The notes below the pieces were generated by a model. It searched no databases. It was not told the DNA's origin and saw nothing but the letters and a program-made list of their open reading frames with translations. From contig NZ_AP022847.1 of assembly GCF_015100395.1 (NCBI RefSeq), forward strand, positions 310,001-374,000: a stretch of 64,000 nt of DNA, read 5' to 3'. Shown in pieces: positions 5,869 through 55,568 of the stretch. A program made the position numbers and the translations under genes. The first letter of the stretch is position 1, and the number at the start of each line of letters is the position of its first letter. This DNA comes from Nitrosophilus alvini. Its GTDB lineage: Bacteria > Campylobacterota > Campylobacteria > Campylobacterales > Nitratiruptoraceae.

Positions 5869-5967
5869 GGGAGAGCCGTAAAGAAAAAGCAAACTGCTTT
5901 GCTTTTTCAGGCTCGCACGGCGAGGCGAATATGCGGGCGAAGCCTGCATAGCCTACGCCAGTTTACC
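5869..5967 (+). repeat. Hairpin-module repeat, copy A (99 nt)
   Basis: This intergenic module has two hairpins. The first has an inner 11-bp stem with a CTGC loop (inner arms 5883-5893 and 5898-5908) and an outer stem GAGCC (5873-5877) with GGCTC (5910-5914). The second is built on ATGCGGGC and GCCTGCAT around a GAA loop, flanked by GGCG and CGCC arms, and the module ends in CAGTTTACC. It is identical base for base to copy B, 126 bp away. Related modules at 26.1 and 55.3-55.5 kb keep the fold with different stem sequences. Confidence 0.88.
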
Positions 5968-5994
5968 GAAGAAGGCTGAAGGACGAAGGTTGAA
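5968..5994. repeat. GAAGGTT-family heptamers between hairpin modules
   Basis: Degenerate 7-mers (GAAGGCT, GAAGGAC, GAAGGTT) link the two identical hairpin modules. The same 7-mer family occurs inside waaF and near 6.2 and 55.4 kb. Confidence 0.75.
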
Positions 5995-6152
5995 GGGAGA
6001 GCCGTAAAGAAAAAGCAAACTGCTTTGCTTTTTCAGGCTCGCACGGCGAGGCGAATATGCGGGCGAAGCCTGCATAGCCTACGCCAGTTTACCTATAGAA
6101 TGCACGGCGATGGCGATGTGCAGAGCGGAGCGATTGCACCGCCAGACGCCAG
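5995..6152 (+). repeat. Hairpin-module repeat, copy B plus a third hairpin
   Basis: Bases 5995-6093 repeat copy A exactly. They are followed by a second unit with the same flanks (GCACGGCGA start, CGCCAGTTCACCG end) but another interior. Its stems are GGCG (6106-6109) with CGCC (6147-6150), TGGCG (6111-6115) with CGCCA (6140-6144), and GTGCA (6118-6122) with TGCAC (6135-6139). No open reading frame or known RNA is recognised here. The 5750-6228 interval contains only these repeats and the possible rho promoter. Confidence 0.85.
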
Positions 6153-6158
6153 TTCACC

Positions 6159-6236
6159 GAATAAGGACGAAAGAATAAGGAAGAAGGACGAAGGTTGAAG
6201 GTTGAGCAAACTGCTCACCAATCACCAATCACGAAA
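6159..6236. repeat. Mixed heptamer array downstream of the 130-residue membrane protein
   Basis: GAAGGTT-type heptamers (6159-6206) run into a small GAGCA/TGCTC hairpin and then ATCACCA/ATCACGA heptamers (6213-6236). The ATCACGA part reads antisense to the flanking genes. The stop codon of the adjacent reverse-strand gene lies inside the array. Confidence 0.7.
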
Positions 6237-7212: not shown

Positions 7213-7303
7213 GTTAGTGTTAGTGTGGGTGTGGGCGAATACGGATCACCAATCGCCAATCACGAGTTACGAATCACGAATCACGAGTCACCAATTACGA
7301 ATC
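7213..7303 (+). repeat. Composite hexamer-heptamer element before ccoI
   Basis: GTGTTA/GTGTGG hexamers (7213-7236) are followed by a GCGAATAC joint and then ATCACGA-type heptamers (7245-7303). They end just before the AAAAGGA ribosome site of the P-type ATPase. The whole 106-bp spacer consists of this element plus the ribosome site. Confidence 0.85.
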
Positions 7304-7316
7304 AAAAGGAAAATAG

Positions 7317-9737
7317 TTGTCGAAAATCAAATGTGACCATTGCCATCTGGAGTTTGATGAAAAAGTTATGATAGAAGATGATTTAGGCGGCGAAAAAAGA
7401 TATTTTTGCTGCAAAGGGTGCCAGGGGGTATATCATCTTCTCAAAGAGGAGGGACTTGATACTTTCTATGACAAACTCGGGGATAACAAACTAGAACCTG
7501 CTGTTGCGGCTACAGAAAAGGATGATCTGGAAAAGTTTGATCTTGATGGTTTTGAAAAAAAATATGTCAAAAAAAGCAAAGAGGGACTAAATGAAATCAA
7601 TCTTATTATAGAAGGAATTCACTGTGCAGCTTGTGTATGGCTAAATGAAAAAGTTTTGCATCAGACTCCCGGTATCATAGAAGCTTCGATAAACTACTCA
7701 AACAACAAAGCAAAAATTGTCTGGGATCCTGATGAAATAAAACTCTCTGAAATTATAAGAAAAATAAGATCAATCGGTTACAATGCCTATCCTTACGATG
7801 CACAACTGCAAGAAGAGAGAGCCGTTAAAGCAAGACGGGACTATTATGCCAGGATATTAGTTGCAGTTTTTGCCACAATGAACATAATGTGGATTGCTAT
7901 TGCTAAATATGTAGGCTTTTTCACGGGTATGAATCGCGATATTAAAGATATATTGAATGTTGCAGAATTTATACTCGCGACTCCCGCCCTTTTCTATAGC
8001 GGATGGGTATATTTTAGGGGTGCATATTACGGTCTTAAAAACGGTTTTGTTACTATGGATCTTCTTGTAGCGACCGGTGCGACACTTGCATACGTTTACT
8101 CTATCTATGCAATGATAACGAGAACAGGAGAAGTATATTTTGACTCTGTTACCATGATAGTAACTTTCGTGCTGGTTGGCAAATATCTTGAAGTTTTAAG
8201 TAAGAAGAATGCTGTAGATACCATAGATAAGCTCCTGGGAACTGTTCCCACGGAAGTAACTGTGATAAAAGACAATGAAAAAGCTCTTGTAAGTATAGAA
8301 GCCGTTCGCCCGGGGGATTTGATAGAGTTAAAGCCGGGCGAAAAAGTTGCGATAGATGGGACTATAGTTACTGGTTCGGCATCTTTTGATGAAAGCTCGC
8401 TTACAGGAGAGAGCGAACCTGTTTTTAAAAAAGAGGGTGACGAGGTTCTTAGCGGTTCAATATGCCTTGATGGCGTAGTTAGATATGAAGCCAAAAAAGA
8501 TTTCAATACCTCTTTACTTTCAAATATAATAACACTTCTTGAAGACTCTATCACCAAAAAACCTCGTATTGAGAAACTTGTAAACCGGATATCGAGATAT
8601 TTTTCCGTAACGGTTTTGAGTATAGCGGTATTGACTCTTATAGCATGGTATATATATACAGGCTCTTTTGAAAAAGCGTTGATTGTTGCAATTTCAGCCA
8701 TTGTAATAGCATGCCCATGCGCATTGAGTCTGGCCACTCCTATGGCTACACTTGTGGGGATAAATTGGGCGGCAAAACACGGGATTTTATTTAAAGAAGC
8801 CGGTTTTATTGAGACAATGGCTAAAAGTGATATGCTTGTTTTGGATAAAACCGGAACGATTACCGAAGGAAAACCGAAAGTTGTTGACGCCTCATTTTTG
8901 AAAGAGTTTGACCGCTCGTTTCTTTACTCGCTTGTTTTGACTTCAAATCATCCTATAAGCCGGGGAGTTGCGGATTTTATAAAGGATGAAGGAGTAAAAA
9001 CGCTGGAGCTGGAAAATATAGAATCTATAGAAGCAAAAGGAGTAGTAGCGGAATATAAAGGAAAGAGACTAATAGGAGGAAATCCGGAACTACTTAAAGA
9101 AAAGGGTATAAAATTTGAGTATGAAGGGGAAGATTCCGTTTTTATTTTTGCCATAGATGATAAAGTGTGTGCCCTGTTTGAACTTAGAGACACACCAAGA
9201 AGCGGAGCTGCAGAAGCTGTAAAGAAAATAAAAGAGATAGGCATTAGAGTTGTAATGCTTACAGGAGACAATGAAAAAGCTGCAAAAAGAGTTGCAAAAG
9301 AGGTTGGTATAGAGGAGTTTTACGCAAAACTTCTGCCGCAGGAAAAAGCTATGAAGATAGAGGAGTTTCGTAAAGAAGGGCATATCATAGTGATGGCAGG
9401 AGATGGTATAAATGACACAGTGGCTTTGTCTTTGAGTGATATATCCATAGCTATGGGCAGCGGAGCGGATATCGCAATAAGTGTAAGTGATGTTGTCCTT
9501 CTTGACGAAGAGCCCAAGACCCTTTATAATGCTTATGTTATAAGCAGAAGAGTCTATAAATTTGTGAAACAAAATCTTGCTCTCTCTTTGATATATAACT
9601 CAATAGCTTTGCCTTTGGCTGTAGCGGGTTTTGTGAATCCTCTGATAGCAGCTATTTCTATGTCGCTGAGTTCCTTGCTTGTAGTGGGAAATTCGATCAG
9701 GATAAAGAGAGTTAGTGTGAGTGTGAGTGAATACTGA
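7317..9737 (+). CDS. ccoI: Copper-translocating P-type ATPase for cbb3 oxidase assembly
   Basis: This membrane pump is predicted to export Cu(I) for cbb3 cytochrome oxidase maturation. The cytosolic N-terminus has a cysteine-rich metal site (C6, C9, C31, C32, C35) typical of CcoI/FixI, then a heavy-metal domain with CAAC at 103-106. The transmembrane CPC motif is near residue 465 and the phosphorylation motif DKTGT near 507. The start is TTG with AAAAGGA seven bases upstream. The ccoS gene follows, which supports the assignment over a general CopA. The last residues, VSVSVSEY, are encoded by GTGTGA hexamers of the intergenic element, so the C-terminus has been extended or replaced by repeat sequence. 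Confidence 0.92.
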   Translation: MSKIKCDHCHLEFDEKVMIEDDLGGEKRYFCCKGCQGVYHLLKEEGLDTFYDKLGDNKLEPAVAATEKDDLEKFDLDGFEKKYVKKSKEGLNEINLIIEGIHCAACVWLNEKVLHQTPGIIEASINYSNNKAKIVWDPDEIKLSEIIRKIRSIGYNAYPYDAQLQEERAVKARRDYYARILVAVFATMNIMWIAIAKYVGFFTGMNRDIKDILNVAEFILATPALFYSGWVYFRGAYYGLKNGFVTMDLLVATGATLAYVYSIYAMITRTGEVYFDSVTMIVTFVLVGKYLEVLSKKNAVDTIDKLLGTVPTEVTVIKDNEKALVSIEAVRPGDLIELKPGEKVAIDGTIVTGSASFDESSLTGESEPVFKKEGDEVLSGSICLDGVVRYEAKKDFNTSLLSNIITLLEDSITKKPRIEKLVNRISRYFSVTVLSIAVLTLIAWYIYTGSFEKALIVAISAIVIACPCALSLATPMATLVGINWAAKHGILFKEAGFIETMAKSDMLVLDKTGTITEGKPKVVDASFLKEFDRSFLYSLVLTSNHPISRGVADFIKDEGVKTLELENIESIEAKGVVAEYKGKRLIGGNPELLKEKGIKFEYEGEDSVFIFAIDDKVCALFELRDTPRSGAAEAVKKIKEIGIRVVMLTGDNEKAAKRVAKEVGIEEFYAKLLPQEKAMKIEEFRKEGHIIVMAGDGINDTVALSLSDISIAMGSGADIAISVSDVVLLDEEPKTLYNAYVISRRVYKFVKQNLALSLIYNSIALPLAVAGFVNPLIAAISMSLSSLLVVGNSIRIKRVSVSVSEY

Positions 9738-9795
9738 TTGCCAATTACGAATCACGAATCACGAATCACAAATCACGAATAATGAATTACGAATT
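9711..9795 (+). repeat. Composite hexamer-heptamer element between ccoI and ccoS
   Basis: GTGTGA hexamers (9711-9729) overlap the 3' end of ccoI. A GTGAATAC joint and about eight ATTACGA/ATCACGA heptamers (9737-9795) follow, ending before the AAAGGA ribosome site of ccoS. Order and orientation match the element before ccoI. Confidence 0.88.
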
Positions 9796-9807
9796 TAAAG
9801 GAAAATT

Positions 9808-14184: not shown

Positions 14185-15210
14185 CTATCCGGTCAGCTCT
14201 TTTGCCGCTTCTATAACCATTTGTGCGGATATTCCTTTCATACATTCATGATGTTTCAGCGGGCATACCCTTTTCATACAGGGGGCGCATTCTAGGTTCA
14301 GTGAGATTACTTTGCTTTTCGGATTTTTCCACTGGGATGTGGAAGTGTAGTCGGTGGGGCCGAATATTGCCACTGTTGGCACTTTGTAGGCGGCTGCGAT
14401 ATGCATAGGACCGCTGTCGTTTGTGATGAAAAGATCAAGAGCGGCGATACTCGATATAAGCTTTGCAATGTTTGTCTTTCCTGCAAGATTTTTATAGTTT
14501 TTTACTCCCAGTTTTAAAAGTTCATTTTCTATATCTTTTGCTATTTTAACTTCACCCGGCCCACCGAATATCAGTATATTGTACTTATCTGAGAGTGCGG
14601 CTGCTGTTTTTGCAAATCTGTCAGGATACCATCTCTTTGCGCTTCCGTAGGTGGCACCTGGGTTTATTCCAAGCAGAGGTCGAAGGTTGAAGGTTGAAGG
14701 GGGAATTTTGGGAAAATAGAGTTTCAGGTCGCCTGCCGGCAGGTTTGTATTTAAAATCTTGTTGATAAATGTGTTGTATTTTTCTACCTGATGAAGAGAG
14801 GTAGAAGGAAGAAGTTTGAAGGCTGAAGGGTTATATTGATAGCGTTTTTTTGAGCCGGTTAAAAACAGAAGAAGTTTAGAGAAAAAGTGGCTTCTAAAAG
14901 TGACGGCAATATCATGCGTACCTATCTCTTTTGCAAGTTTATAGGCGGCAAAAAGGCGGTTTTTGCTCTTTTTTGTATCGTCCACAAAGACTCTTTTGAC
15001 TTTGGGATAGTTTTTTAAAGCTTCTGTTGATACATAGCTTCCGACCAGGGTTATTTCTCCGGGATTCAAAGTTTTTATGAGGTTTTGAATGGCGGGAGTC
15101 GCCATGATGGTATCACCCAGCCATGTGGGAAGTTCTATAAGCAAGGTTGAAGGTGGAAGGTCGAAGGTGGAAGGTCGAAGGTTGACGGCTGAAGGGTTAG
15201 ATGAGTTCAT
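14185..15210 (-). CDS. waaF: LPS heptosyltransferase II with repeat-encoded insertions
   Basis: This GT9 enzyme adds the second heptose to the lipopolysaccharide inner core. The catalytic core is recognisable from LLIELPTWLGDTIMATPA near residue 24 to TNDSGPMHIAAA and the C-terminal cysteine pair. Three segments do not fit the family: the N-terminal 22 residues (with PSTFDLPPST), PSAFKLLPSTS near 128-138, and PSTFNLRP near 170. All are translated from CCTTCNA heptamer arrays, and all keep the reading frame. Start choice is uncertain: ATG at 15210 overlaps the upstream glycosyltransferase by 14 bp and makes the repeat part of the protein. A TTG near 15140 would remove only the first insertion. 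Confidence 0.88.
   Translation of the reverse strand: MNSSNPSAVNLRPSTFDLPPSTLLIELPTWLGDTIMATPAIQNLIKTLNPGEITLVGSYVSTEALKNYPKVKRVFVDDTKKSKNRLFAAYKLAKEIGTHDIAVTFRSHFFSKLLLFLTGSKKRYQYNPSAFKLLPSTSLHQVEKYNTFINKILNTNLPAGDLKLYFPKIPPSTFNLRPLLGINPGATYGSAKRWYPDRFAKTAAALSDKYNILIFGGPGEVKIAKDIENELLKLGVKNYKNLAGKTNIAKLISSIAALDLFITNDSGPMHIAAAYKVPTVAIFGPTDYTSTSQWKNPKSKVISLNLECAPCMKRVCPLKHHECMKGISAQMVIEAAKELTG
14677..14705 (-). repeat. CCTTCNA heptamers inside waaF (third site)
   Basis: Three to four tandem heptamers, CCTTCAA/CCTTCGA on the coding strand, encode PSTFNLRP just before the conserved LLGINPG motif. The frame is kept. Confidence 0.85.
14796..14830 (-). repeat. CCTTCNA heptamers inside waaF (second site)
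   Basis: About four degenerate heptamers on the coding strand encode NPSAFKLLPSTS before the HQVEKY motif. The frame is kept, although flanking bases had to compensate for a copy number that is not a multiple of three. Confidence 0.8.
15143..15197 (-). repeat. CCTTCNA heptamers at the waaF 5' end
   Basis: Seven to eight tandem heptamers lie between the stop of the upstream glycosyltransferase and the first conserved waaF codons. On the coding strand they read CCTTCAG, then CCTTCGA and CCTTCCA in alternation. Confidence 0.88.
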
Positions 15211-24927: not shown

Positions 24928-26023
24928 GAAGGTTTTGATAGATATCTATAATTTTATCTGTCATAACCTTTTTTGAAAAATTTTTCACCACAAAATCCCT
25001 TGCGTTTTTGGCGTAATTTTCTCTAAGCTGTGGATTTTGTATCATTTTTTCTACGTTTTGAACCAAACTTTTCATATTTTTAGGCTCAATCAGCATAAAG
25101 TTGTCATTGTGCCACAGATCTTTAGTACTTCCCACATCTGTAGCTATTACCGGAAGTTTCATCATAAGTGCCTGCATAACCGATTGTGGTACCCCTTCGT
25201 TTGAATCGGAAGTGAGAGTAAAAATATCAAGAGTCGATAAAAATTTTGCAGGCTTGTTTACATGTCCCAACATTTTGACTCTTTCTTTAAGTCCCATCTC
25301 TTTTACCATTTTTTTTATTCTATGTTTTCCTGGACCATCTCCCGCTATCAAAAAAACGGTTTGGGGATATTTTTTAGATATCTCTTTTGCCATCTCTAAA
25401 AAGAGATCGTGTCTTTTGAAGCCTCTTAGAACCGCAAGTATTCCTATAGCGATCTGATCTTTTTTTATCCCGAAAAACTCTCTGTTTTTTTCTTTGTCGA
25501 ATTTATCGGGATCAAATATCTTTTCATCAATCCCTGTGGGTATCGAGGCTATACGCTTGGGCTTTATACGGTTGAAACGTATCATATCTTCTCTTACGCC
25601 CTCACCAGTCGTTATGATAAAATCGGCCATTTCGTTTATGAAATTTAGTCTTGAAGGGTTTATTCTGTTTGAAAGATGGCGGGTTCTTATAAATTTTGCT
25701 CCGGCAATTTTAGCGGCAAATCCTCCCACCCAGGTATCTTTTCCGCTGTGGGTGTTTACTATGTCAATCTTTTCATCTTTTATGATTTTTATCAGACCAA
25801 AAAGAGTCTTTAAGTCGGTATTCCCTCTAAAAGGCAAGCTATATACTTTGATACCGTATTTAATAGCTTGCTCTTTTATTTTGGCGTGATCTCTACAAAC
25901 TAGCAAGACCTCAACCCCTCTTTCTCTGACAGAAAGCATTTCGTTTATGATTCTGATTTCCTGTCCGCCCCATCCATCTGACCACTCTGTGTGTAATACT
26001 TTTATCTTTTCTGTTTTTTCCAA
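24920..26023 (-). CDS. Glycosyltransferase family 4 protein
   Basis: This GT-B glycosyltransferase (367 residues) has the conserved opening KVLHTEWSDGWGGQEIRI, ILAVLRGFKRHDLFLE at the second domain, and DSNEGVPQSVMQALMMKLPVIATDVG as the donor-binding E-x7-E region. I place the start at TTG 26023 with AAGGAT ten bases before it. The open frame continues to 26101, but those codons come from the hairpin repeat and look non-coding. The acceptor is unknown; the position suggests LPS core or surface glycan. Confidence 0.83.
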   Translation of the reverse strand: MEKTEKIKVLHTEWSDGWGGQEIRIINEMLSVRERGVEVLLVCRDHAKIKEQAIKYGIKVYSLPFRGNTDLKTLFGLIKIIKDEKIDIVNTHSGKDTWVGGFAAKIAGAKFIRTRHLSNRINPSRLNFINEMADFIITTGEGVREDMIRFNRIKPKRIASIPTGIDEKIFDPDKFDKEKNREFFGIKKDQIAIGILAVLRGFKRHDLFLEMAKEISKKYPQTVFLIAGDGPGKHRIKKMVKEMGLKERVKMLGHVNKPAKFLSTLDIFTLTSDSNEGVPQSVMQALMMKLPVIATDVGSTKDLWHNDNFMLIEPKNMKSLVQNVEKMIQNPQLRENYAKNARDFVVKNFSKKVMTDKIIDIYQNLLN

Positions 26024-26056
26024 GATATCTTTATCCTTCAACTTTGTTATTCTATA

Positions 26057-26213
26057 AACTGGCGTCTGGCGGTGCAATCGCTTCGCTCTGCACATCGCCA
26101 TCGCCGTGCAATCTATCGGTAAACTGTCGTAGGCTATGCCGGCTTCGCCCGCATATTCGCCTCGCCGTGCGGCGCTAAAATCGTGAAGCAGTTCACGATT
26201 TCTTTACGCGCCT
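26057..26213 (-). repeat. Hairpin-module repeat between two glycosyltransferase genes
   Basis: Read on the reverse strand, three hairpins follow each other as in the 5.9-6.15 kb copies. The CTGC-loop hairpin has the inner arms AAATCGTGAA and TTCACGATTT (26201-26192, 26187-26178) and the outer arms GGCGC and GCGCC (26212-26208, 26175-26171). The stem sequences differ from copies A and B yet remain perfectly paired. The ATGCGGGC and GTGCA units follow. The repeat supplies the last codon and stop of the upstream gene. Confidence 0.88.
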
Positions 26214-26914
26214 CCCTTTTTAATATATTTCCAAAATGTATATTGGCTGTAGAGTTTTGCTATCAGGTAACCGTGCCAGCCGTCAAGAAAACCGAGTTTT
26301 AAAAAAAAGATCTTAAAAAAAGTCCAGGGGGGATTTATGACTGCTTTTATTCTGTTTGGTTTTGCCCCAAGAGATGAGTATCGGTTCTGCTTATCTATAA
26401 ACTCTTCTACGCTATCATATGCAAGATGTAGCATATGGTTTTTTAAAGAGCCAGTTTTGCTCTCGGTTACTACTTTTTCATGAACTTCGTCGGAAGTGAA
26501 TCTCGCTTTTTCTTTGTCGAAAAGTCTTATAGTTTTATCAGGATAGAGTCCGCAGTGTTTTATCGGTTTGCCAAAAAAGTAGTTTAATCTTGGAACTTCG
26601 TAGGCTTCAAACTTCGGATTTTTTAAAATCTCTTTTATCTCTTTTTGCAGATTTTCAGTTATTCTCTCATCGCTGTCAAGCACGAAAACCCATCTGTTTT
26701 TGGCCAAATCCACTGCTTTTTGTTTCTGTTTTCCGAAGCCTAGCCACTTTTGATACTCCACTCTAGCACCGAGCTCTTTTGCAATTTTTGCGGTATTGTC
26801 GCTTGAACCGCTGTCAAGTACCAATACTTCATCAGCAAAAGAGGCTGATTCTACGGCCTCTTTTATATATTTTTCGCTGTTAAAAGTGATAATAACTACA
26901 GATAGCTTTTCCAA
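26204..26914 (-). CDS. Glycosyltransferase family 2 (WaaE/KdtX-like)
   Basis: This 236-residue GT-A enzyme has VVIITFNSEKYIKEAVESA at its start and VFVLDSDERIT as its DxD motif. The pattern fits the WaaE/KdtX family that adds glucose to an LPS core heptose. The start is TTG 26914, directly after the upstream stop, with GGAG six bases before it. The last residues (GGA) and the stop codon overlap the hairpin repeat, so the original C-terminus may have been different. Confidence 0.87.
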   Translation of the reverse strand: MEKLSVVIITFNSEKYIKEAVESASFADEVLVLDSGSSDNTAKIAKELGARVEYQKWLGFGKQKQKAVDLAKNRWVFVLDSDERITENLQKEIKEILKNPKFEAYEVPRLNYFFGKPIKHCGLYPDKTIRLFDKEKARFTSDEVHEKVVTESKTGSLKNHMLHLAYDSVEEFIDKQNRYSSLGAKPNRIKAVINPPWTFFKIFFLKLGFLDGWHGYLIAKLYSQYTFWKYIKKGGA

Positions 26915-28009
26915 TCAGACTCCATAAAACTCTCTATACCATTTGACAAACTGCTCGACTCCGTACTCTATAGGAGTTCCAGGCTTATATCCCAAATCTC
27001 TTTCCAAAGCGCTGGTATCTGCCCATGTGGCAGGTACGTCTCCGGGTTGAATCGGGAGCATATTTTTCTTTGCCTCTTTGCCCAAAGCCTTCTCTATCGC
27101 TTTGATAAAATCCATCAGCTCCACCGGAGCGCCATTGCCTATGTTATAGACTCTGTAAGGTGCTTTGCTGGAAGCCGGATTTGGCTTTTTGCCGCTCCAC
27201 TCGGGATTTGGCTTTGCGGGATTGTCAATAACCCTGACCACACCTTCCACGATATCATCTATATATGTAAAATCTCTTTTCATTTTGCCATAATTAAATA
27301 CATCTATGGGTCTATTTTCTATGATCGCTTTGGTGAACAGAAAAAGTGCCATATCCGGTCTTCCCCATGGGCCATATACGGTAAAAAATCTAAGACCCGT
27401 TGTAGGAATGTTGTATAGATGGCTGTATGTATGTGCCATCAGTTCATTTGACTTTTTGCTTGCAGCATACAAGCTGATGGGATGGTCCACGTTGTCTTCG
27501 ACGCTGAATGGCATCTTCTCGTTTAGTCCGTATACACTGGAACTGCTGGCATAGGCTAGATGTTCTATATCATTGTGTCTGCAGGCTTCGAGTATATTTA
27601 AAAATCCTACGATATTGCTTTGGATGTATGCATCAGGGTTGGTTAGAGAGTATCGTACTCCTGCCTGTGCGGCCAAATTGCATACTCTGTCAAACTTTTC
27701 TTCAATAAACAGTTTATCAATCGCCTCTTTATCTTCCAAATCAATCTTGTAAAATGTGTGGTTCGGATATTTTTTACTTCTGTATTTTTTACCATATTCG
27801 AAATCGTTCTCTTCAAAACCCAACTCTTTCAATCTTCCGTATTTTACTCTGATGTCGTAGTAGTCGTTGATATTGTCTATACCTACTACCTCATCACCTC
27901 TTTCAAGAAGTCTAGTTGCAAGATGAAAGCCTATAAATCCGGCTGTACCGGTTATAAGAATTTTTTTTCGTGATTCGTGATTCGTGATTCGTGAATGGTT
28001 TTTGTCCAT
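26915..28009 (-). CDS. NAD-dependent epimerase, UDP-glucuronate 4-epimerase-like
   Basis: This extended SDR enzyme (364 residues) has the cofactor motif [11 protein letters not shown] and the catalytic YAASKKSNE segment. [10 protein letters not shown] is typical of UDP-glucuronate 4-epimerases (CapI family). With ugd nearby, the pair could make UDP-glucuronate and then UDP-galacturonate. The first 15 residues, containing [10 protein letters not shown], are translated ATCACGA heptamers inserted after the start codon. Without them the protein would begin near KKILITG, as homologues do. ATG follows the preceding stop directly (TAAATG). Confidence 0.88.
27967..27998 (-). repeat. ATCACGA heptamers inside the epimerase 5' end
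   Basis: Four tandem heptamers (CACGAAT on the coding strand) lie between the start codon and the first conserved codon and are read in frame. Confidence 0.88.
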
Positions 28010-28360
28010 TTATTTCGCCTTTATAAAATTTATAAGCCCATAGAGCATTTTTTTGATTCTGACAATATCTTCGATTGTCTCATCTATATTTTCAACAAAA
28101 CAGAGCCTTTTTGCCAGTAATAATTGTGTTTCAAGTTCGGATAATGAACCTAGCGAAATAAATAGAAACTGAATGAATTCTTTATTGCTCTGTCTTGAAG
28201 CGCCTTCTGCGATATTGCTTGGAATTGAGATTGTAGCTCTTTTTATTTGCAAAGTTAATCCGTATGTCTCTTCTTTTGGAAATGTCTGACAAAGTTTGTA
28301 TATCTTTTCCACTAAATCCATAGAGAGATTCCATACATCCAAATCTTTATGTTCTTTCAC
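28010..28360 (-). CDS. Four-helix-bundle protein (S23/IVP family)
   Basis: This 116-residue protein belongs to the four-helix-bundle family first known from intervening sequences in 23S rRNA genes. Features are KEHKDLDVWNLSMDLVEKIY at the start and RATISIPSNIAEGASRQSNKEF centrally. The function is unknown; members form pentamers and occur as stand-alone genes. GTG at 28360 has AAGGG six bases upstream and matches the usual KEHKDLDVW beginning, so the longer frame to 28402 is rejected. ATCACGA arrays lie on both sides, which suggests an inserted cassette between sugar-nucleotide genes. Confidence 0.85.
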   Translation of the reverse strand: MKEHKDLDVWNLSMDLVEKIYKLCQTFPKEETYGLTLQIKRATISIPSNIAEGASRQSNKEFIQFLFISLGSLSELETQLLLAKRLCFVENIDETIEDIVRIKKMLYGLINFIKAK

Positions 28361-28393
28361 TAATACCCTTTTAATCATAACCAACTTCAATTT

Positions 28394-28426
28394 ACCAATC
28401 ACGATTTACGAGTCACGAATTACGAA
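28394..28426 (+). repeat. ATCACGA heptamer array between ugd and the four-helix gene
   Basis: About four degenerate heptamers (ATCACGA, TTTACGA, GTCACGA, ATTACGA) lie on the forward strand, antisense to the flanking genes. They touch the ugd stop codon. Confidence 0.78.
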
Positions 28427-29781
28427 CCAACTCCAATCTGATGATACTCGAAGCCAAGCTCTTCGAGTTTGTCTTTGTTATATTGGTTTCTGCCGTCAAA
28501 AATGATCGGATTTTTGAGTCTTTTTTTTATTTCGTAAAAGTCCGGGCTTCTAAACTCTTTCCATTCGGTTATGAGAAGCATAGCATCGGCTTTGTTCAGT
28601 GTATCGTATTTATTTTCGGTATATTCTATGTTTTTATTATCTTTTAGATAGAAGTTTTTTGCTTCTTCCATCGCTTTGGGGTCGTATGCTTTGATTTTGG
28701 CTCCTCTTTTGGTAAGCTCATTTATTATTGTGATAGAGGGAGCTTCTCTCATATCATCTGTTTCCGGTTTAAAGCTCAGTCCCCAGACGGCGAAAACTTT
28801 ATCGCTTAAATCTTCCCCGAATCTGTTGATAACCTTTTGAGACAGTATAAGTTTTTGTTCTTTGTTGACCTCTTCGACTGCCCTGATTATTTTGGGCTTT
28901 ACACCGTTGTCTAGGGCAATTTTTTCCAAAGCTTTTACGTCTTTCGGAAAACAGCTTCCGCCGTATCCGCAGCCAGGATATATAAAGCTGTAGCCGATTC
29001 TGCTGTCGCTGCCGATCCCCACCCTTACTTTGTTTACATCTGCGCCTACCGCTTCGCATATACGGGCAATTTCGTTCATAAAGGATATTTTTGTTGCAAG
29101 CATTGCATTTGCAGCGTATTTTGTCATTTCGGCACTTTTGATGTCCATACCGATAAATCTCTCATGATTTCTAGTAAAAGGAGCATAGAGTTCTTTTAAA
29201 ACGCCCATTGATTTGTGATTGTCTGCACCTATAACGACCCGGTCCGGTTTCATAAAGTCTGCTATCGCATCGCCCTCTTTTAGAAATTCAGGGTTGCTGA
29301 CTACATCGAACTGAAGAAGATCTTCGTATTCGCCGGGAGTTATCTCTTTGTTTTCAACTCTTTTGTCTAACTCTTTTTTTATCGTTTCTCGCACTTTGTC
29401 GGCGGTTCCGACCGGAACGGTTGATTTGTCTACGACTATAACAGGATGGTTCATATGTCTACCGATATCTTTTGCAACAGCGAGTACATACTGCAGATCT
29501 GCGCTGCCGTCTTCTCCCTGCGGAGTTCCAACTGCAATAAAGACTATATCGCTTTTTTCAAGAGCTTCTTTGATATCGGTAGTGAAATTTAGAGTACCCT
29601 TTTGATAGTTTCTCTCAACCATTTCAGAGAGTCCCGGTTCATAGATGGGGATAATTCCGTTTTTGAGTTTTTCTATCTTATTTTTGTCAATATCTACACA
29701 TATTACACTGTTTCCCATTTCAGCAAAGCACGTTCCTGTGACCAGTCCCACATATCCTGTACCTATGATGCTTAGTTTCAT
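28420..29781 (-). CDS. ugd: UDP-glucose 6-dehydrogenase
   Basis: This enzyme oxidises UDP-glucose to UDP-glucuronate with NAD. The N-terminal motif [10 protein letters not shown] and the catalytic [10 protein letters not shown] (cysteine nucleophile) near residue 265 are clear. The length of 453 residues is normal. AAGGAAGAGA precedes ATG. The stop codon is formed at the edge of a heptamer array. It lies in a reverse run with waaC, the lipid A acyltransferase, the four-helix protein and the epimerase. Confidence 0.95.
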
Positions 29782-29799
29782 TCTCTTCCTTTTTGTTTG

Positions 29800-29874
29800 T
29801 AACTCGTGATTCGTGAATCGTGAATGGTTATACCCACACTCACACTCACACTTAAACTTAAATTCGTGAATCGT
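29800..29874 (-). repeat. Composite hexamer-heptamer element before ugd
   Basis: On the coding strand the order is heptamers (29874-29861), GTGTGA hexamers (29850-29832), a TATAACC joint, and ATCACGA heptamers (29829-29800). The AAGGAAG ribosome site of ugd follows. Order and direction match the elements before ccoI, ccoS and trpS. Confidence 0.85.
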
Positions 29875-46997: not shown

Positions 46998-47010
46998 CTG
47001 CTCCCTTTTT

Positions 47011-47077
47011 TCGTAATTCGTGATTCGTGATTGGTGGTTAGTGACTGGTTTCACTCACACCCACACTCACACTCACT
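47011..47077 (-). repeat. Composite hexamer-heptamer element between der and trpS
   Basis: On the coding strand GTGTGA hexamers (47077-47051) are followed by GTGAAACCAGTCACTAACC and ATCACGA/ATTACGA heptamers (to 47011), then the GGGAG site of trpS. AGTGA and TCACT in the joint can form a small hairpin. The joint is almost the same as in the element before nusB. Confidence 0.88.
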
Positions 47078-51292: not shown

Positions 51293-51360
51293 GTGTTGGT
51301 GTTAGTGTTGGTGTGAATATAACGAGTCACGAATTACGAATCGCAAATTAAGAGTCACGA
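51292..51360 (+). repeat. Composite hexamer-heptamer element before the EamA transporter
   Basis: GTGTTG/GTGTTA hexamers (51292-51316), a GTGAATATAAC joint and GTCACGA/ATTACGA heptamers (51320-51360) fill the spacer up to the AGAGGGGG ribosome site. Confidence 0.85.
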
Positions 51361-51377
51361 AAAAAAGAGGGGGATTT

Positions 51378-53645: not shown

Positions 53646-53743
53646 TGTGTGGGTGTGGGTGTGGTGAAACCGATCACTAACCACCAATCACGATTCACGA
53701 ATTACGAATTACGAATTAGAATCACGAATTAAAATTACGAATA
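53646..53743 (+). repeat. Composite hexamer-heptamer element before nusB
   Basis: GTGTGG hexamers (53646-53664), a GTGAAACCGATCACTAACC joint and about nine ATCACGA/ATTACGA heptamers (53671-53743) fill the ribH-nusB spacer up to AAAAGGA. GTGGT and ACCAC in the joint can pair, with GTGA and TCAC inside. It closely matches the element before trpS. Confidence 0.9.
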
Positions 53744-54226: not shown

Positions 54227-55270
54227 GTGAGACTTAGCAAAGAAGAGGCGGTAAGACTTATAAAAGAAGGGGACCTGAAAGAACTTGGGTTAAAGGCGTT
54301 GGAGAAAAAAAGAGAACTACATCCGAAAAAAATCACCACTTTTATAGTTGACAGAAATATAAACTATACCAATGTGTGCTGGGTCGATTGCAATTTTTGT
54401 GCCTTTTATCGCCATAGCAAAGATGAAGATGCATATATCCTCAGTTTTGAAGAGATAGACAAAAAGATAGAGGAACTTATTGATATCGGAGGTACCCAGA
54501 TTCTTTTTCAGGGAGGAGTTCATCCCAAACTGAAAATAGACTATTATGAGGAGCTTGTTGAGCATATTCACAAAAAATATCCTCAGATTACAATACATGG
54601 ATTCAGTGCCGTTGAAATTGACTATATATCCAAAGTTTCCCGTATCAGTTATGAGGAGACTCTGCAAAGACTAAAAGCCAAAGGTCTGAGTTCAATTCCG
54701 GGAGCAGGTGCCGAGATCCTCAGTGACAGAGTAAGAGAGATTATAAGTCCCAAAAAACTGAGTTCCGAGGAATGGCTGGATATTCACAGAACGGCTCACA
54801 AGATAGGTATGAAAACGACCGCTACGATGATGTTCGGAACGGTGGAGAGCGATGAAGAGATAGTTGAGCATTGGGAAAAACTGAGAAAATTGCAGGATGA
54901 GACAGGAGGGTTTAGAGCTTTTATCATGTGGAGTTTTCAGCCGCTACATACAAAACTCCAAAAAGATGGAATAGTAAAATATAAAACTTCATCAAACAGA
55001 TATCTGAGACTGTTGGCGGTTTCCAGACTCTTTTTGGACAATTTTAAAAATATTCAGTCTTCCTGGGTGACACAGGGGAGTTATATAGGGCAGATGGCTC
55101 TTCTATTTGGAGCCAATGACCTCGGTTCTACAATGATGGAAGAAAATGTTGTCAAAGCTGCCGGGGCTCAAAACAGGATGAATCAGGAAGAGATGATAAG
55201 ACTTATCAAAGAGATAGGAGAAATACCCGCAAAACGCAACACTGCCTATGAGATTTTGGAGATGTATTAG
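54227..55270 (+). CDS. mqnC: Cyclic dehypoxanthine futalosine synthase
   Basis: This radical SAM enzyme of the futalosine menaquinone pathway (347 residues) has the iron-sulfur cluster motif CxxxCxxC in CWVDCNFCAFYR at residues 49-60, preceded by NINYTNV as in MqnC. GGTQILFQGGVHP and IHGFSAVEI are also typical. The pathway is the normal menaquinone route in Campylobacterota. The start is GTG with AAAGGAG upstream. Confidence 0.94.
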   Translation: MRLSKEEAVRLIKEGDLKELGLKALEKKRELHPKKITTFIVDRNINYTNVCWVDCNFCAFYRHSKDEDAYILSFEEIDKKIEELIDIGGTQILFQGGVHPKLKIDYYEELVEHIHKKYPQITIHGFSAVEIDYISKVSRISYEETLQRLKAKGLSSIPGAGAEILSDRVREIISPKKLSSEEWLDIHRTAHKIGMKTTATMMFGTVESDEEIVEHWEKLRKLQDETGGFRAFIMWSFQPLHTKLQKDGIVKYKTSSNRYLRLLAVSRLFLDNFKNIQSSWVTQGSYIGQMALLFGANDLGSTMMEENVVKAAGAQNRMNQEEMIRLIKEIGEIPAKRNTAYEILEMY

Positions 55271-55274
55271 AAAG

Positions 55275-55490
55275 AGGCGCGTAAAGAAATCGTAAACTGC
55301 TACGCAGCTTTGCTGCTTATCGGCTGTCTAACGGTGCAGAGTGGAGCGATTGCACCGACAGACGCCAGTTCACCGAATAAGGATGAAGGTTGAAGGCTGA
55401 AGATTGAGCAAACTGCTTTGCTTTTTCAGGCTCGCACGGCGAGGCGAATATGCTGGCGAAGCCTACGCCGATTTGTCGAAAGAGGGCGAA
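55275..55490 (+). repeat. Hairpin-module repeat between mqnC and the M16 gene
   Basis: This mosaic contains a GGCGC-GTAAAG start like the 26-kb copy and a partly decayed CTGC hairpin. Its GTGCA-type unit has the arms CGGTGCA (55332-55338) and TGCACCG (55351-55357), with TGT/ACA and GGC/GCC outside. GAAGGTT heptamers follow (55378-55405). A second CTGC and ATGC-type unit (55405-55475) reads like copies A and B with a shortened hairpin. The 298-bp mqnC-M16 spacer holds only this and the hexamers at 55525-55548. Confidence 0.85.
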
Positions 55491-55524
55491 GAACAAAAGG
55501 GTTTGAGTATATAGATGGTAGTTG

Positions 55525-55548
55525 CCACTCACACTCACACCCACACTA
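55525..55548 (+). repeat. CACACT hexamers before the M16 gene
   Basis: Four hexamers, CACTCA/CACCCA type, lie in the opposite orientation to other copies, ending 20 bp before the ribosome site of the M16 protein. Confidence 0.7.
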
Positions 55549-55568
55549 TTAAGAAGCCGGAGAAATGG

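Follow-up and report, generated by a model that had tools for sequence, protein, structure and literature searches.

Rickettsia palindromic elements (RPE) are palindromic repeats that enter genes, and the non-autonomous elements derived from IS200/IS605 are read as single-stranded DNA hairpins and insert by a short fixed target with no target duplication. In E. coli, REPs lying no more than 15 nt from a stop codon are reported to stall ribosomes. In the REP system, the transposase reads a bulge and an unpaired tag on single-stranded DNA (PMC8266576), and in the repetitive hairpin-forming elements (RHE) of sponges the helices are kept while the loops vary (PMC2800124).

The element described here consists of two unlike hairpins, HP I and HP II. 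Like REP, BIME and REPIN sequences, it is a small palindromic extragenic repeat, dispersed, mosaic and often found beside stop codons, and its copies are dispersed imperfect palindromes in intergenic DNA, as expected of REPs. It differs from them, however, in having no GTAG or CGTC tag at its 5' foot, in its free stems where REP stems are largely conserved, and, with respect to repeats served by TnpA-REP (RAYT), in its two unlike hairpins and its lack of association with a Y1 transposase. The best reading is that the element is REP-like in manner but not a REP. Copies also lie inside genes as RPEs do, but those in rhs genes break the frame and those at gene ends replace the stop codon rather than being read through in translation. 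IS200/IS605-derived elements are probably comparable in their hairpins read as single-stranded DNA and in insertion by a short fixed target, apparently with no target duplication, whereas the element again shows no Y1 transposase association; a pattern of fixed loops and free stems is not known for them. Mitochondrial double-hairpin elements and the sponge RHE likewise look like mobile hairpins in intergenic DNA (PMC2800124), but the RHE pattern is reversed here, with loops kept and helices varying, in another lineage and with no sequence link.

We analysed a 64-kb window, positions 310001-374000 of the single-contig 1.81-Mb genome of Nitrosophilus alvini. The original prediction described a repeat unit at 6.1 kb with the stems TGGCG/CGCCA and GTGCA/TGCAC. 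Both stems were found, as P4 and P5 of HP II, and the unit (unit C, Table 1) is the second half of the two-hairpin element. It has no preceding HP I and is attached to the end of a complete copy, copy B; at L004 and L012, an HP II of the unit-C kind stands behind an intact HP I. HP I is built of P1, a 5' bulge GTNAAG, a 10-bp P2, a CTGC loop and a 3' bulge YA. It is followed by the linker GCAC, by HP II and by the 3' box AGTTYACCG. P1 in the window copies is 5 bp long (GAGCC/GGCTC in the type of copies A and B). In HP II, bulges of one and of two bases separate P3 (GGCG/CGCC) from P4, whose versions include GGC/GCC and TGGCG/CGCCA; P5 and a loop follow. In HP IIs of the host's own class, 273 of 291 cells in the first three P4 pairs are paired, compared with 174 when the arms are shuffled, the former being an upper estimate because the choice of P3 partner favours paired cells. 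Three classes differ in the linker 3' of HP I and in the columns upstream of it: GCACGRCG and GG in class A, to which the host's own copies belong, GRAACC and TGA in class B, and RCGAGT and GGY in class C, which mostly has a 9-bp P1.

Table 1. Copies of the two-hairpin element and its parts in the 64-kb window (fold z is relative to shuffled sequence)
Feature	Position	Strand	Parts	Basis or remark	Fold z
Copy A, complete element	5872..5968	+	P1 5873-5877/5910-5914; bulge GTAAAG 5878-5883; P2 5884-5893/5898-5907; loop CTGC 5894-5897; bulge CA 5908-5909; linker GCAC 5915-5918; HP II 5919-5959; 3' box 5960-5968	model match G000:C1:315872-315922	-4.3
Copy B, complete element	5998..6094	+	126 nt 3' of copy A; shares one 101-nt block with it, 100%	model match; repeat comparison	-4.0
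Unit C, HP II half element	6102..6159	+	start GCACGGCGA at 6102; linker GCAC 6102-6105; P3 GGCG/CGCC 6106-6109/6147-6150; P4 TGGCG/CGCCA 6111-6115/6140-6144; P5 GTGCA/TGCAC 6118-6122/6135-6139; 3' box AGTTCACCG 6151-6159; end CGCCAGTTCACCG at 6159	reading of letters	-2.96
Second HP II, unit-C kind	26047..26108	-		adjoins 26-kb copy directly behind	
26-kb copy, complete element	26117..26213	-	P1 GGCGC/GCGCC; P2 AAATCGTGAA/TTCACGATTT	HP I stems exchanged; HP II of A/B kind	-4.54
Decayed copy, 55 kb	55274..55375	+	HP I left half GGCGCGTAAAGAAATCGTAAACTGCT kept, right half replaced by another hairpin; HP II variant CGGTGCA/TGCACCG 55332-55338/55351-55357	HP I left half, then HP II variant	-2.23 (55-kb unit)
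Second decayed copy	55393..55470	+	HP I 5' arm not intact; HP II degenerate	weak model match G000:C1:365393-365441	

A covariance model of HP I (R1) found seven HP I copies in the host genome, five strong and two weak. In addition, CGCCAGTTYACCG with at most two mismatches occurs six times where 0.67 occurrences are expected, a count reached in none of 100 shuffles. The units fold better than shuffled sequence (Table 1), in line with the predicted hairpins. For the related unit at 55 kb, the claimed stem CGGTGCA/TGCACCG is present, while the next stem, TGT/ACA with a bulged CTAA, is one of two pairings, RNAfold giving GTCT/AGAC with GGC/GCC instead. The conserved flanks, read as a frame for several hairpins, do hold different interiors, but they are not neutral flank: the frame is the outer stem of HP II together with the 3' box (CGCC-AGTTYACCG), and complete elements carry HP I in front of it as well. 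HP II is one part of a larger, phylum-wide element of fixed geometry.

We next consider how the stems vary. Stem cells are paired in 96% of cases among the 22 copies found by BLAST and in 98.2% among 66 distinct copies found by the model; many of the copies are from MAGs, copies are not independent of one another, and 3' junctions are poorly resolved. In the 66-copy set, double-sided changes occur in 14 of 15 stem pairs and the covariation score is 0.64, against 0.16 for shuffled and at most 0.09 for slid alignments; in both alignments, stem covariation exceeds all shuffles and slides. Even the loop-closing pair swaps, from AACTGCTT to ACCTGCGT, with CTGC unchanged. Column entropy is 0.96 bits at paired positions and 0.35 bits at unpaired ones, the latter value being partly set by the filter on copies. 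Within the host's own class, the GTNAA bulge, the CTGC loop, the YA bulge and the GCAC linker are near-invariant. The length of P1 is similarly sharp, exactly 5 bp in 146 of 184 copies and exactly 9 bp in 13. Taken together, the fixed stem lengths and the jointly changing stems make it seem that some factor recognises the shape of the element. G-T outnumbers A-C in the stems on the CTGC strand (41:23, p 0.03; HP II was left out of these counts because the choice of P3 partner favours G-T), a weak bias, from copies that are not independent, and at most a weak hint that the CTGC strand is the one being read.

A direct view of exchange comes from the glycosyltransferase locus at 26 kb, which is 96% identical on both sides to L012 of genome G005, so that the flanks align. 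Between the two loci, P1 (GAGCC/GGCTC and GGCGC/GCGCC) and P2 (AAAAAGCAAA/TTTGCTTTTT and AAATCGTGAA/TTCACGATTT) differ in both arms with pairing kept, and bulges and loop are the same. The host genome additionally has an extra HP II module between two GCACGGCG linkers, where in L012 HP I is followed at once by an HP II of the unit-C kind. Element interiors are therefore exchangeable, and the idea of an interchangeable module stands at this locus; elsewhere, much of the variation is instead compensated stem-by-stem change at orthologous sites, namely fabG and fabI (below). We searched the host genome for a donor of the exchanged stem and found no other copy in it, while the core of that stem occurs in six other genomes of the host's order. 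The exchange may represent either conversion from an outside copy or change in place. As a separate observation, the whole region 25400-27000 is 96% identical to G005 when other loci of the two genomes are at about 65-78%, which suggests a recent horizontal transfer.

The element is widespread in the phylum. BLAST detected it in 21 of 60 genomes. From the host's order, 248 genomes in 73 genera were scanned with the covariance model, and HP I turned up in 96 of these genomes and 37 of the genera. A 31-base pattern matched 96 stretches in about 85,000 species genomes; among the 80 matches listed, nearly all were from Campylobacterota and about half from Helicobacter sp. 11S02596-1. Five of the listed matches lie outside the phylum. 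Four (two Alteromonas, a Paludibacteraceae and a Proteobacteria MAG) have no hairpin and were set aside as chance, and the fifth, on a MAG contig labelled Caldisericaceae, is a true copy, the contig probably being misbinned. Viral contigs, phages and plasmids were searched as carriers and yielded no element, and Rfam 15 gave no covariance-model match at gathering or E-value thresholds. A REP survey covering Sulfurimonas, Helicobacter and Caminibacter counts palindromes, and the portion of it considered here does not describe the element; nor did our literature search, whose scope was papers readable without subscription, return a description. The element thus appears to be previously undescribed. 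In Helicobacter sp. 11S02596-1 (L050-L127), copies are very numerous and are grouped in arrays together with other hairpin modules (CTTTAGGA...; TGGTCTTCAG[stem]CGAGTAAAA). In several copies one arm has been exchanged, as though by recombination within the CTGC loop (L064, L084, L106 and L124).

Other repeats accompany the element. Seven-base tandem arrays of the CACGAAT/TACGAAT kind lie in spacers of the window (7231-7316, 9723-9801, 27961-28010, 28377-28441, 29796-29831, 47010-47054, 51319-51369 and 53666-53730). A second heptad kind, GAAGGTT (5968-6010, 6171-6208 and 14677-15202), also abuts the hairpin elements, and in L007 and L008 such heptads lie opposite their own complements, giving long hairpins. 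Several genomes have a palindrome of some 290 bp (core AAAAAGTGC...GCACTTTTTT; L013, L016, L017, L031 and L032) whose loop contains HP I and HP II, a hairpin nested in a hairpin; L187 (G001) has the palindrome without them. The gene boundary before an M16-like peptidase gene (55270-55565 in the host; orthologous L187 and, in G003, L188) is occupied in three genera by repeats of unrelated kinds (hairpin elements, a large palindrome, heptads), and four other genera have almost nothing there; it is a recurrent landing place. In f4 genomes (L020, L035, L211-L215, L218 and L220), copies begin within a reverse-complemented tRNA 3' end, and in several of them the tRNA fragment is repeated downstream of the element.

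We then examined where copies lie relative to genes, with gene names assigned from C-terminal sequences and gene calls taken as mechanical ORFs. A same-strand stop codon is found at -24 to +20 of the element start in 42 copies. At fabG, empty sites read ATG^TAA or ATG^TAG (G120, G161) and filled ones ATG|TGAGACGCG (G151, G210). At groEL, the empty site is ATG^TAA (G141, G210 and G161, the last with other hairpin repeats 3' of the gene) and the filled one ATG|TGAGAACC (G151). At rimP, TGG^TAA (G161) becomes TGG|TGAGAACC...GGCAAAGCA|TAA (G151, G210). In all three genes, the last sense codon is kept and the TGA of the element serves as the stop; in filled rimP, the native TAA lies 3' of the element and no target-site duplication, as expected of a MITE of a DDE transposon, is visible, and an imperfect ACWGAY repeat in fabI of G220 relative to G075 is ambiguous as one. 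Ten copies supply the stop of a gene in this way (L168, L180, L217, L241-L245, L252 and L348), preceded by ATG in five and TGG in five, and stop-codon proximity therefore reflects, at least in part, target choice and survival. Such a target would also explain why groEL, fabG and an RNase J-like gene are hit repeatedly, the end of the last carrying the element in the host (near 27738) and in G198. Empty sites also exist in relatives at the host's own loci, and most relatives have no element at the same gene. Counted across every callable copy, there is no orientation bias relative to genes (20 same strand, 18 opposite, 9 divergent), and the spacers that hold copies may be convergent, tandem or divergent. 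In two rhs genes, a copy breaks into the conserved core at one and the same site (L073 at 4401, L105 at 300); both shift or stop the frame, which rejects in-frame peptide insertion for these two, and an ORF scan for read-through copies gave none that was convincing.

Copies are observed scattered in both orientations, sites occur with and without the element, and a module has been gained at a conserved linker. We lean, by a narrow judgement, towards the view that the element is a non-autonomous mobile repeat that spreads as DNA and is recognised as a folded single strand, the 6.1-kb unit being a half copy. A trans-acting protein, most likely one for single-stranded DNA hairpins (HUH/Y1-like or relaxase-like), would read unpaired bases and stem length, not the sequence of the stems. 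Stem diversification would then probably join drift, through compensatory changes or template switching, to the recombination of modules at shared linkers and loops; the one-armed Helicobacter hybrids fit such diversification. Insertion would need a short target, ATG^TRA or TGG^TRA where the element's TGA ends the gene, and an element that sits at a gene end and brings its own TGA would do little harm, so that insertions persist. Y1 transposase is absent from the host genome, and its presence showed no association with the element either in a first sample (4 of 16 vs 6 of 15, p 0.46) or between high-copy and low-copy genomes (10 of 17 vs 6 of 13, p 0.71). This comparison, which covered the Y1 family, yielded no mobilising enzyme, and no de novo movement was seen; both count against the mobile reading. 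More tentatively, and with doubt prevailing, the element might represent a new phylum-wide class of mobile elements addressed by shape, with fixed stem lengths and unpaired bases, exchangeable stems and its own stop at stop codons.

The main rival is a functional 3'-UTR RNA, with hairpins that would work at gene ends in the mRNA, by terminating transcription, protecting the message or stalling ribosomes, and with pairing maintained by selection on RNA. Its strongest point is the paired orthologous copies at fabG and fabI. In genus g6, the fabG element has a 9-bp P1 with the stop codon inside it, in the variants GCATAAGCC/GGCTTATGC, GCATAACCC/GGGTTATGC, GCATAACGC/GCGTTATGC and GCTTGAGCC/GGCTCAAGC; in genus g12, the fabI element likewise keeps a stop-containing 9-bp P1 paired across species, and a synonymous GAC/GAT change in an Asp codon is mirrored in the opposite arm. 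Double changes in P1 separate the species in both cases. Since these copies are orthologous yet paired, either the structure matters there or the arms are constantly re-copied, and such pairing across a genus exceeds what a selfish insert in decay would require, which counts against the mobile reading. The 42 copies near same-strand stop codons point the same way, as do the groEL element of G151, which occupies the position of ordinary terminator-like hairpins in G141 and G210, and the conservation of loops beyond helices, typical of structured RNA (PMC2800124). However, an RNA role would not predict the absence of any orientation preference, the many P2 stems without a U tract or the lack of the element at the same gene in most relatives; the fabG element of g6 itself is missing in five relatives, and fabI of G088 has an ordinary terminator-like hairpin instead of the element. 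Moreover, with the exact ATG/TGG preference, no function is needed to explain why groEL, fabG and the RNase J-like gene are hit repeatedly. We therefore regard an RNA role as possible but unlikely to be the answer. A simple terminator is disfavoured by the neutral orientation and by the number of stems lacking a U tract; TTTT(T) closes some P2 arms but is missing from others (CAAACGAC...GTCGTTTG). Control directed at fatty-acid genes in particular was rejected as a general explanation, because groEL, rimP, mnmG, RNase J-like, RidA-like and other genes are hit as well and final Met or Trp codons explain the TGA-supplying class.

Old neutral palindromes, with arms kept complementary by template-switch correction and no recognition at all, would account for the rapid joint change of both arms at the 26-kb locus and for the one-armed Helicobacter hybrids, as expected in mid-correction or after loop recombination. 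They would not be expected to have near-invariant unpaired bases across 37 genera, or a P1 of sharply 5 or 9 bp and a P2 of 10 bp, and we consider this explanation improbable. Least probable is an attC-like site, a folded single strand whose shape is recognised and which a tyrosine recombinase joins. Such a site would account for the exchange of modules at fixed linkers and fits the structure conserved over sequence and the tandem units, but the copies here are dispersed rather than in cassette arrays, and the conserved GTNAA is unpaired in HP I, with no paired AAC partner visible by eye, where an attC has paired GTT/AAC core boxes.

The closest described bacterial palindromic repeats keep much of their stem sequence, whereas here the sequence is free and the geometry fixed, throughout a phylum. 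The many natural variants are available for finding the protein, or the RNA function, that reads this shape, and the covariance model can be used in annotating these apparently undescribed repeats. If true, precise insertion at stop codons would give an element a tolerable existence in a compact genome, and at fabG, fabI or groEL it might be wrongly taken for regulation through the 3' UTR.
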